Shown here: piece after piece, positions 3,094 to 6,959 of the stretch
Layout of the letters: each line of letters opens with the position of its first letter
Position numbering within the stretch: position 1 is the stretch's first letter
NCBI RefSeq assembly: GCF_022539665.2
Contig: NC_081339.1
Location: forward strand, 7,003,367-7,067,366
Source of the DNA: Daphnia carinata
Taxonomy: Eukaryota > Arthropoda > Branchiopoda > Diplostraca > Daphniidae
DNA: 64,000 nt
Direction: 5' to 3'
Translations under genes and position numbers: made by a program
Notes under the pieces: model-generated
Told to the model about the DNA's origin: nothing
Databases searched by the model: none
What the model saw: only the letters and a program-made list of their open reading frames with translations

Positions 3094-6000
3094 CTAATAG
3101 TAGGTCTCCTGTTCTACCCAACCGCCTGGATTGCGTCGAATAATGTACTTTCGGATCTCGTCATAGACGAAAATTAAAAGCGCGTATGGCATAGCAGGTA
3201 ACCACCAGTTCCATCTATGTAAAAAGAAAAGGAGATCAAAAAATAACTTCGTTAGACGAGGATTTAGCCTTAGAAAGGAAGAGAAAAACTTACTTTATTG
3301 GGTACATACGAAGACCGTTGTCCATGCCGGGAGTGTATGAGAGGAAACAGGCAACAGCCGTCTCAAAGAAGAGACCGAACGTCAGGACGTGGTTGCGCAT
3401 ACCTTGTTGGAACAGCGAATTACGTCTGGTTTTGCAAATGATCAAATCAGTCCATTGGACAATGACGACCGAAATGAAAAATGCCGTGTGACAGGTAAAT
3501 TCCAATTGCTTGCGGTTTTCGTAAGTCTGACAATTAAAAAAAAACCGTGATAAAATGGAAGTGAAGGAGTTCATTAATACGCTATAAAATACCCATTCTT
3601 GTCCATAGGAATCCTCGAGATCGTTGATGGCTTTCGAGTCCCATCGTTTACGCAAATCAATCAGAAACATTGGCCAAAAGCCATTTTCAGCCATGATGAC
3701 GAAATAGGTGAAGAAGGCACCCAACGCTTGCATCACACCAATTTGCCCGTAAGACATGGAAATCAATCTTTTTGTCGGATTCGATTAAGTATTAGTTATA
3801 CATTGTACAGATTCCAAATTGATTACCTGGAATTGACAAGTTTGTCCGTCTGAGCATTACGCGGGTACCGCTTCATAATGTCTGATTCAGCTTCTTCATA
3901 AGCTAGTGAAATAGCCGGAACCTGGCATAATGGAAATCTTGAGGAACCGCTAGGATTATCGTAATTAATTTGATGATTGATACCATGTCTGTTCCCAAGT
4001 CAATGCAAAGGATGGTGACAGTGCCCAGAGGCAGAGGAATACCGAAACTAATGAAAGCTAAGAATGGCGTAAGTTCAGGAATTTTAGACGTCAATGTGTA
4101 CGCAATAGATTTCTTTAGGTTATCGAAAATGAGACGGCCTTCTTCGACGCCAGTAACGATTGAAGCAAAATTGTCGTCCAGTAAAATCATGTCTGCAGCT
4201 TGTTTGGACACATCCGAGCCAGCAATACCCATGGCCACACCTGCAATGACCAAGTCATCAATTATAGTTTGTTTTTAACGTATGAATAATTCGCTTAATT
4301 CTTTACCGATATCAGCTTTCTTCAATGCGGGCGAATCGTTGACACCATCTCCAGTGACGGCCACAATGGCGCCACCACGCTGGCAACCTTCGACGATGAT
4401 CAGTTTCTGCTGAGGAGACGTTCGAGCGAAGACGATTTCAGAATGATTACGTAGAACAGCATCGAGTTGCTCGTCGTCCATGTCACGTAATTCTGCACCA
4501 GAAATAACTGCAGCGGTGGCATCCCTTGGGTTAATCTTTTCTACTGGCACATTCAAACGAGTGGCAATATCTTCGACAGTCTCACTGTCGTGCGTAATAA
4601 TTCCGACGGAACGAGCAATAGCCTTCGCAGTGGTAGGGTGATCGCCAGTCACCATAATTACTATTGAAATATCATTTAATTATTTTAATTCACGTTATAG
4701 GAAGCCAAAGGACTTGTTTACCTTTAATTCCGGCTGAACGGCATTTGGCGACAGCATCTGGAACGGCAGCTCGAGGAGGATCGATCATGGACATGAGACC
4801 GACGAAACGAAGACCAGAGATGGGGAAGTTGACTTCATCGGCGTCGAATTTGAAGCCCTTGGGGAACTGATCAAGAGGCAAATGGAAATCGCAGAAACCC
4901 AAGACACGTTCTCCCATTCCACCAAGTTCCATGTAAGCTGTATTAAAGGCATCCTTCATCTGATTATCCATTGGTCTCTCCTGACCGTTGATGAAAATGG
5001 TGGAACAGAGGTCCAAGATCCTCTCCGGAGCACCCTTCATGGCCAAGTAATACCGTCCGTCTTTTTTATCTTCATTCTCGTGAATGGACACCTGATACTT
5101 GTTGCTGGAGTTAAAAGGGATTTCACAGACTTTGGCATTACGTGCTCGAATGGCCATAGCTTCGCCGGTAGCCAATTCGACACACTTGAGCAAAGCAGCC
5201 TCGGAAGCATCGCCGTTAACGTCGCGCTGCATTATGGGAACACCTTGCTGCCCACCTTGAAACTCTGCGCGGCTACACAGGCAAGCAACCCGGGACAGAG
5301 CTTTCCAGCCTGCGCTAGTTTTATCGTACTGTGCGCCTATTGGTATGAAACATCAATTAAGGATAACTAATAATATCAGGTTTAGGAACAGTTGTATTTA
5401 CCTGATTGATTCTCTGTTGTATCAGTTTGGATGATTTTACCGTCGTACCACATATGGGCAACTGTCATGCGATTTTGAGTCAGAGTTCCTGTTTTGTCGG
5501 AACAAATGATCGAAGTTGAACCCAATGTCTCAACGGCTTCCAAGTTCTTCACCAAACAATTCTTCTTTGCCATTCGTTTGGCCGTGAGGGTTAAGCAGAC
5601 GGTGACAGTAGCCAACAAACCTTCTGGCACCTTTGCTACGATGATACCGATTAAGAAGATGGCAGCTTCAAGGAAGCTGTAACCCAGCAGCATGGCGAGG
5701 ATGAAGAAAGTGACTCCTAAGAAAATAGCCACCACCGTAATGATGTGAATGAAATATTCAATTTCTCGGGCAATCGGCGTCTGGCCCGTTTCCAATCCTG
5801 AAGCCAATCCAGCGATGCGACCCATCACCGTGTTGTCTCCGATGCTGATGACGACGCCACGCGCCGTTCCTGTAAGTCAACAAGCAACGTTCATCTATTA
5901 AGCTTAATTCCTAGTCCTCAATGATCTGATTTATTAGACGTGCCTTCAATGGCGTTGGTTGAGAAGAAAGCCAAATTTTTAGTTTCCAACGGATTGCTGT

Positions 6001-6959
6001 GTGTAAATTCAGGACTTCGACTCTGCGGTTCCGATTCGCCGGTTAATGAAGAGTTATTGACTTTGAGTTGCCGAGCCTCCAGAATGCGGATGTCAGCCGG
6101 AATTCGGTCGCCGAATTTGACTTCTACCAAGTCGCCAACGGTGAGTTGTTCAGCTTTCATGGTAAGTTTCTGTCCATCACGAACGACTAGGGCAAACTGG
6201 GGCACCATGTTCTTGAACGACTCCATAATTTTGCTACTCTTTCTCTCTTGGAAATAGGAGAACACAGCAGTCACCACAACAACGACCGTCAGTGCAATAC
6301 CCAGGTATAACTAAAAGTTGTAGAAAACCCTTTGATTACCTGTAATGCTTTATTTTTGTTGAAAAAGACAGCTTACATTGTCGCCTAGAATGTCAGGATT
6401 GCGTGAGACTTCGATTGCGTAGGCCGAGTAACACAGGATAGCACCGACCCACAATAGCAGGGAGAAACCTCCGAAGAGTTGGTTGCAGAATTTCACCCAT
6501 TCGGGCGTTGTCCTTGGAGGTGTCAAGGCATTGGGACCATCACGTTCGAAGTTGGCTTTGGCTTGAGCTGATGTCAAACCCTACGGAAGTATGTCAGGTT
6601 AATTGACATCTGCTTTTATAGTTTATAATGATAATAATTAAATTTTGAATTCCTGCTTTAGTCGAACAGGAAAAGCGATTCCCTTTGACAAGCGCAGACT
6701 TACATGAGAATGTAAAAGATTGCCGATTTCACATATACTATGCTTCGTTAAACTTAAGTACGTATACAGAAAATATATTTTTTTTTCTCATTGTACTTCG
6801 AAGTATGTCGAGCAGGAAAATTGCGTAAAGATTATTCACCTTGATTGGATCGCATTTCAAGCGTCGGCACAAGTCTTCGACGGATAACCGATGCTCATCC
6901 ATCTCCAATTCCTTTTTCAGGTTATTTAAATTTTTTATCTTCTTGGGTTTGGGAGCCAT
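3094..6959 (-). CDS. ATP1A: Na+/K+-ATPase alpha subunit, double-lysine (KK) paralog
   Basis: Catalytic alpha subunit of the plasma-membrane sodium pump. Eleven exons (high to low): 6840-6959, 6377-6580, 5944-6310, 5402-5869, 4722-5336, 4307-4660, 3984-4240, 3827-3921, 3593-3767, 3294-3526, 3094-3214. They sum to 1002 codons plus TAG, the usual length. Visible motifs: phosphorylation site DKTGT (D355), [27 protein letters not shown], cation-site CIDLGTDM, and the C-terminal ETYY. The start is MAPKPKK, just after a 5' UTR acceptor. Two normally invariant Asn are Lys: K310 in TM4 (VAKVPEGLL, codon 5631-5633) and K762 in TM5 (TSKIPE, codon 4083-4085). They match pig N324 and N776, with the same 452-residue spacing. 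The motif before IPLPLG also differs (FG; AD in the neighbour). The intron at 5870-5943 must use a GC donor. The frame is intact, so this is not a pseudogene. Confidence 0.96.

Follow-up and report, generated by a model that had tools for sequence, protein, structure and literature searches.

Can an animal of fresh water keep a sodium pump of the double-lysine type, and if so, does it share that pump by descent with the brine shrimp or did it arrive there separately? The question is raised by a 64,000-nucleotide stretch of the Daphnia carinata genome (RefSeq assembly GCF_022539665.2, NC_081339.1, positions 7,003,367 to 7,067,366 of the forward strand; hereafter the window), in which two genes for Na,K-ATPase alpha subunits lie in tandem. 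One encodes asparagine at two sites in transmembrane helices 4 and 5 (TM4 and TM5), as canonical pumps do (NN); the other encodes lysine at both (KK). To our knowledge, few pumps have an altered stoichiometry, and the double-lysine type has been tied to brine. The Daphnia species compared here, for their part, are fresh-water hyper-regulators. We put at roughly 0.6 the probability that the KK copy is a tandem duplicate of a canonical Daphnia alpha gene that predates the split of the sampled Daphnia, that its lysines were gained independently of those of Artemia, and that it is a working reduced-stoichiometry pump for Na+ uptake from dilute water.

A double-lysine alpha subunit beside a canonical copy

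The features on which the argument depends are listed in window coordinates; positions marked "calculated" were obtained by arithmetic, and the two lysine codons were read from the spliced gene.

3094..6959, minus strand: KK gene, Na,K-ATPase alpha subunit, 11 exons, 1002 residues (from splicing and an exact match to protein P0001)
6959-6840, 6580-6377, 6310-5944, 5869-5402, 5336-4722, 4660-4307, 4240-3984, 3921-3827, 3767-3593, 3526-3294, 3214-3094, minus strand: the KK exons
5870..5943, minus strand: KK intron 3, GC-AG (exon end AAG, intron GCACGT ... TTACAG), the gene's only non-GT donor
5661..5663, minus strand: Ala300 codon (start of TM4; Val in most pumps, Ala also in Artemia KK), calculated
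5631..5633, minus strand: Lys310 codon AAG (TM4, VAKVPEGLL; Asn in canonical pumps)
5484..5498, minus strand: DKTGT phosphorylation motif (Asp355), calculated
4083..4085, minus strand: Lys762 codon AAA (TM5, TSKIPE; Asn in canonical pumps)
4071..4073, minus strand: Leu766 codon (four residues past Lys762; Ile in canonical pumps, Leu also in Artemia KK), calculated
3449..3451, minus strand: Thr911 codon (TM8, QWTD, adjoining Asp912; Ala in most pumps, Thr also in Artemia KK), calculated
10570..14672, minus strand: tandem neighbour, canonical Asn/Asn alpha subunit, 11 exons, 1005 residues, identical with P0006

A first-pass annotation, made by reading the letters alone, had described the KK gene as an intact frame of 1002 codons. 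Splicing yields 3009 bases with a single, terminal stop and a protein ending in ETYY that is identical at every residue to the public D. carinata protein P0001, which bears this out. The codons at the two positions that it gave for the lysines are indeed AAG and AAA, and the neighbour keeps asparagine at both sites (Asn313 and Asn765, both AAC). Nine of the 10 introns are GT-AG; the tenth, intron 3, is GC-AG, with a donor at 5943 that is otherwise consensus-like. Two smaller remarks hold as well. The FG ahead of IPLPLG is present, with the G fixed in four Daphnia KK sequences and the F variable (F, F, V, and L), and the changes noted in TM3 correspond to V276, S295, and F296, residues confined to KK in the TM3 to TM3-4 stretch.

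The two genes are separated by 3.6 kb, share the same 11-exon layout, and encode proteins with 86% identity; a protein search of the window found these two and no additional tandem alpha copies. Across 1002 codons, the D. carinata pair differs at a proportion of 0.652 of synonymous sites (pS) and 0.081 of nonsynonymous sites (pN), giving a ratio of nonsynonymous to synonymous substitution rates (dN/dS) of 0.056, with dS near saturation. Between D. carinata and D. pulex, 11.4% of amino acids differ in KK and 8.7% in the NN sequences, the orthology of the latter being less sure.

By sequence, the KK protein belongs to the Na,K-ATPase alpha subunits (P2C) and is nearer to Na,K- than to H,K-ATPase: solved Na,K-ATPase chains match it at ∼1580–1714 bits, potassium-transporting (H,K) ATPase chains at 1412 bits or less. 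Structure 8k1l, named alpha2KK, is among its structure matches. The motifs TGES, DKTGT, GDGVND, PEGL, and C-terminal ETYY are retained, as are the ion-path residues Tyr757, Thr758, Thr760, Ser761, Glu765, Asp790, Asp794, Gln909, Asp912 (the site III Asp), and Glu940. Apart from the two Asn sites, all ion-coordinating residues checked in TM4, 5, 6, 8, and 9 are retained. An AlphaFold model of the protein, built on a 26-row alignment, was uninformative and was set aside: mean predicted local distance difference test score (pLDDT) was 58.9 and predicted template-modeling score 0.33, and residues 304–364 and 694–766 fell below a pLDDT of 50.

We surveyed the two lysines with three homologue searches, each contributing its best 120 rows, for a combined set of 347 proteins; the second and third searches took their scores solely from the TM4 and TM5 stretches. 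Residues in the combined set were counted by alignment. Among the best 120 homologues of KK, 115 are Asn/Asn, four are Lys/Lys, and one has Asn in TM4 with TM5 unread. All four sequences of the Daphnia KK clade, from D. carinata, D. magna, D. galeata, and D. pulex, are Lys/Lys. The Lys/Lys observation is thus correct, and its presence in four Daphnia species makes it stronger than the window alone could tell. Sequencing or assembly error as the source of the lysines is ruled out, because gene models of four species have both.

Lysine in TM4 occurs in five of 340 sequences read. The fifth is Artemia franciscana alpha-A (P0125), the only Lys/Lys protein from outside Daphnia among the 347, which supports the likeness to the Artemia double-lysine pump that the first-pass annotation had proposed; by its two lysines we take alpha-A to be the alpha2KK pump, the name that 8k1l bears. 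Lysine in TM5 occurs in 35 of 320 sequences read: the five KK sequences, 29 with Asn or an unread residue in TM4, and one from a choanoflagellate, Salpingoeca rosetta (P0248). The 29 comprise 27 fish sequences (carp, goldfish, pike, tetra, electric eel, and others), one from the frog Rhinophrynus, and one from the leech Helobdella, and their organisms are mostly fresh-water animals. In its TM4 the leech protein (P0242, Helobdella robusta) reads ANVPE; its TM5 has Lys with Met at the +4 position, and its TM8 reads QWTD, in a gene model that is broken past TM4.

Proposed function

In Artemia alpha2KK, the TM5 lysine acts as a tethered cation within an ion site, and the TM4 lysine tunes K+ affinity. 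By analogy, Lys762 would occupy an ion site in the Daphnia protein and Lys310 would tune K+ affinity. The pump would then move fewer ions per ATP, as does the brine shrimp pump with lysines in M4 and M5, which cycles at 2Na per 1K (PMC10812997). With more free energy available per Na+, the cell could keep its internal Na+ far lower. Uptake from fresh water requires low cell Na, so such a pump would be well suited to drawing Na+ from very dilute water through gill or nuchal-organ epithelium; canonical Daphnia copies would do the housekeeping. For haemolymph Na of 50 mM and K of 2 mM, cell K of 100 mM, 50–60 kJ/mol, and −30 to −90 mV, the computed lowest cell Na is 0.27–2.4 mM at 3:2 vs. 0.003–0.07 mM at 2:1. 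If Daphnia KK runs at 2Na:1K, the floor of cell Na would, under these assumed values, fall 32- to 95-fold.

We regard a reduced-stoichiometry (2Na:1K) pump for Na+ uptake from dilute water as the most likely function; stoichiometry, expression, cell type, and ecological role are all inferred by analogy. The first-pass annotation had proposed much the same. Its account of an intact Lys/Lys alpha beside a canonical copy, comparable with Artemia alpha2KK, is supported, and the remainder stands as analogy. A similar argument exists for fish: according to PMC6987325, Jorgensen (2008) held that a lysine in TM5 of a fish alpha1 reduces Na:ATP and favors Na+ transport in fresh water. A V-type H-ATPase with a Na channel was inferred from inhibitors in D. 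magna neonates (PMC9644288 and PMC3498741), an inference that PMC9644288 calls inconclusive. A basolateral KK pump would aid any apical Na+ entry route, and KK is a candidate part of the means by which Daphnia, reported to lack the NHA antiporter (PMC12639140, for D. pulex and D. magna), gains Na+ where the water is very dilute. The D. carinata genome has 18 exon-level matches to the Na/H-exchanger family, with NHE and NHA lumped.

A pump of reduced stoichiometry might instead do another task, serving tolerance of raised salinity or working in the maxillary gland, the gut, or the resting-egg embryo. We think this unlikely, although it has substance. It fits poorly with the occurrence of KK in four Daphnia species that are all fresh-water hyper-regulators and with the mostly fresh-water origin of the proteins having only the TM5 lysine; the marine habitat of Salpingoeca cuts the other way, and D. 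magna tolerates brackish water. Also in its favor, the title of the Artemia paper ties that pump to extreme salinities (as cited in PMC10812997 and PMC11172918), and the basolateral Na+ exit hypothesized for Daphnia in PMC3498741 depends on NaCl cotransport in the neonate and on Na/K/2Cl cotransport in the adult, with no pump. Uptake from dilute water remains our preferred function.

Origin of the lysine pair and of the residues that accompany it

Whether KK arose once or repeatedly, a point that the first-pass annotation had left to phylogeny, was addressed with a maximum-likelihood tree of 30 sequences hand-picked from the 347. The four Daphnia KK sequences form a clade (100/100) nested with the tandem Asn/Asn copies in a wider clade (100/100), and Artemia KK lies outside it on a branch of 0.46. 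Forcing a single KK clade was 38.6 log units worse (approximately unbiased [AU] test, p 0.00168); the AU p value was 0.000803 with the sponge removed and 3.95e-6 with the sponge and the five shared sites discussed below removed. Daphnia KK and tandem NN grouped together in the combined membrane block and, of five segments taken separately, in all except exon 7. On present data, the Daphnia and Artemia sequences are not one clade, and their lysine pairs apparently have separate origins.

The rival account supposes a single old origin, in which a branchiopod ancestor had a KK pump and conversion from the Asn/Asn neighbor erased all but the lysines and a few neighboring residues in Daphnia, misleading the tree. 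It can point to the five shared substitutions and to exon 4, which by itself, and as the only segment to do so, unites all five KK sequences (bootstrap 95). However, that grouping is lost when the shared sites are dropped, and the AU test rejects one clade in all three settings, hardest without those sites. Synonymous divergence between KK and NN is moreover high along the gene (pS 0.50–0.81 by exon, with 0.68 and 0.66 in lysine exons 4 and 7). Identity at four-fold sites is 30–60% per 100 residues and peaks at 56–60% in residues 401–600; gene conversion between the tandem genes was considered, and no near-identical tract was found. We consider a single origin quite improbable and proceed from separate gains in Daphnia and Artemia.

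The resemblance between the two pumps goes beyond the two lysines. Thirteen sites carry a residue that all four Daphnia KK sequences have and 25 others in the tree lack, and Artemia KK has four of these residues: A300, K310, L766, and T911. When two fish sequences with the TM5 lysine are left out, it shares five of 15, K762 being added, and five were reached in three of 1,000 simulations on the same tree; with the fish sequences in, four or more were shared in seven of 500 simulations under each of two models. Eight other clades, taken as a control, share zero to two diagnostic residues with Artemia KK. The simulation figures are only a guide, because the tests were devised after the sites were seen. 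Outside the KK sequences, the alignment has Ala300 in two of 335 sequences read, Thr911 in 13 of 282, and Lys310 in none of 335.

Position 766 appears to be coupled to 762. With Asn762, residue 766 is Ile in 278 of 283 sequences (Leu in three, Met in one, Thr in one); with Lys762, it is Met in 29 of 35, Leu in six, and Ile in none. The query for the TM5-stretch search contained Leu at 766, so that search leans toward sequences with Leu766; the other two were not scored on the TM5 stretch alone. A tree of 64 of the 312 sequences with SK or SN (near-copies and short rows thinned, with the first 45 of 60 thinned SN sequences used) gave five independent pairs on well-supported branches, of which four were concordant, none was opposed, and one showed no difference (sign test p 0.125, too few pairs). 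Residue 766 lies one helix turn past Lys762, where a side chain that does not branch at its beta carbon would, we infer, leave space for the lysine. Leu766, Ala300, and Thr911 would likely be adjustments that fit the two lysines into the pump.

Several observations tell against an independently gained, dilute-water pump. The Salpingoeca protein combines Lys762, Leu766, and Thr911 (QWTD) with Gln in TM4, a further lineage with the same trio, and its marine source means that a TM5 lysine is not peculiar to fresh or hypersaline water. Daphnia and Artemia KK differ at 27% of residues, so equal kinetics are not to be assumed. In the control, the pair of D. carinata and D. magna KK shares three of 15, weakening the contrast. 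Artemia KK is a long branch in a set that contains no Artemia Asn/Asn subunit, none being among the sequences retrieved. Among the matches listed, none from the jgi or lgn sources is KK, and those from D. sinensis and D. pulicaria are other paralogues, in a database clustered at 90%. Finally, one KK donor is GC, and the D. magna KK model (P0002) is 32 residues short where exon 3 ends, TGES being among those lost, and has four additional residues ahead of TYENRK. The gap falls at the same exon end and is compatible with an annotation program avoiding a GC donor; P0002 is probably misannotated by a skip at intron 3.

That KK is a poorly expressed or signaling-only copy nearing loss, its lysines being tolerated damage, we hold to be very improbable: the GC-AG intron and an lgn row (P0005, 16 members) that is near the canonical tandem copy, with no lgn or jgi KK row among the matches listed, speak for it, and against it stand the intact frame and motifs, the dN/dS of 0.056 relative to the neighbor, the presence of the lysine pair in four species, and the secondary changes that the pair has in common with the Artemia pump.

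Other alpha genes, the rest of the window, and known pumps

A genome-wide family search and reading of fetched loci found at least six Na,K-ATPase-type alpha genes in D. carinata, a lower bound from the part of the family-search matches that was read; six such genes are annotated in D. pulex (PMC3793950). Besides KK and NN in the window, other parts of the same contig (C9) hold L009, L010, and L011, all Asn/Asn, and the sixth gene, L013, lies on C7. L009 (G000:C9:4878500-4887500, exon within 6428-6676) has QWVN in TM8 where canonical pumps have QWAD, an Asp-to-Asn change, and the comparable D. sinensis protein P0014 has QWIN. The replaced residue is the site III Asp, so that L009 is predicted to be, after KK, another Daphnia pump in which a Na+ site is changed.

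These genes allow a broader and more tentative proposal, one that we rate as possible but short of even odds. The five-residue set (A300, K310, K762, L766, and T911) may have been reached separately by Daphnia and Artemia at opposite extremes of salinity as a repeatable recipe for a pump that gives up ions per cycle to gain gradient. In that case, Daphnia would have a graded alpha set: canonical copies at 3:2, KK at 2:1, and L009 possibly moving fewer Na+.

Other loci in the family gave further observations. L013 (G000:C7:3861500-3869000, minus strand) is a divergent alpha-like gene. Its TM4 reads SYVPQG, with Tyr replacing Asn and Gln replacing Glu, and it has TKIPE with Lys in TM5, Ser in place of the TM8 Asp, and DKTGT retained. 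L011 (G000:C9:4311000-4320000), read at 817 of 1002 positions with TM8-9 left out, has three consecutive copies of the PAISLAYE exon, at 6432, 7691, and 8397; exon copies of this type are described for other arthropods (PMC3793950). The beta subunit family PF00287 matches at two places in the genome, on C5 and C4. COX1 is found once on C106 and twice on G000:C92, 16.66 kb apart, so that C92 looks like a mitochondrial contig in doubled form; Rfam matches at the three loci are tRNAs only. Elsewhere in the window, Pfam matches mark the following.

17153-17878, minus strand: deoxyhypusine synthase
21484-22008, minus strand: GMC oxidoreductase
26469-27371, minus strand: rhodopsin-family G protein-coupled receptor
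49608-51095, plus strand: class V aminotransferase
62421-63772, plus strand: SIN1

Searches of the Creative Commons-licensed literature in PubMed Central (PMC), which does not include the central Artemia paper (PNAS 2023, e2313999120), brought up no report of a double-lysine pump in Daphnia. Set against a canonical arthropod alpha (P0006), which has Val, Asn, Asn, Ile, and Ala at the five sites, Daphnia KK has A300, K310, K762, L766, and T911. Artemia alpha-A is like it in having Lys at both Asn sites, A300, L766, T911, and the retained motifs; it differs in its 73% identity, its separate clade (AU p 0.0017 or lower), and its hypersaline host. The function of the Artemia pump is measured (PMC10812997), whereas Daphnia KK is known from sequence. 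Fish alpha1 subunits with the TM5 lysine (such as H. fossilis alpha1b N787K, PMC6987325, and salmonid alpha1a) are also thought to serve fresh-water uptake and have a changed residue at +4, but they keep the TM4 Asn, have Met rather than Leu at the 766 site, and carry different TM8/TM9 changes. The Salpingoeca protein, named H/K-exchanging ATPase 4A, shares the TM5 SK and the Leu and Thr at the coupled positions but has Gln in TM4 and comes from a choanoflagellate. The gastric H,K-ATPase alpha (P0237, ATP4A row) likewise has a TM5 lysine followed by PEL, but the lysine lies one residue earlier (KN vs. SK) and TM4 has Tyr.

Daphnia KK thus adds to the known double-lysine pumps, with a predicted function; what is new is the apparently separate origin together with the shared secondary changes. 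A TM5 lysine with a residue other than Ile at 766 provides a sequence mark for finding more such pumps. With an apparently separate second case in a laboratory animal of fresh water, the idea becomes open to genetic tests, and Daphnia and Artemia offer a natural comparison of convergent solutions.

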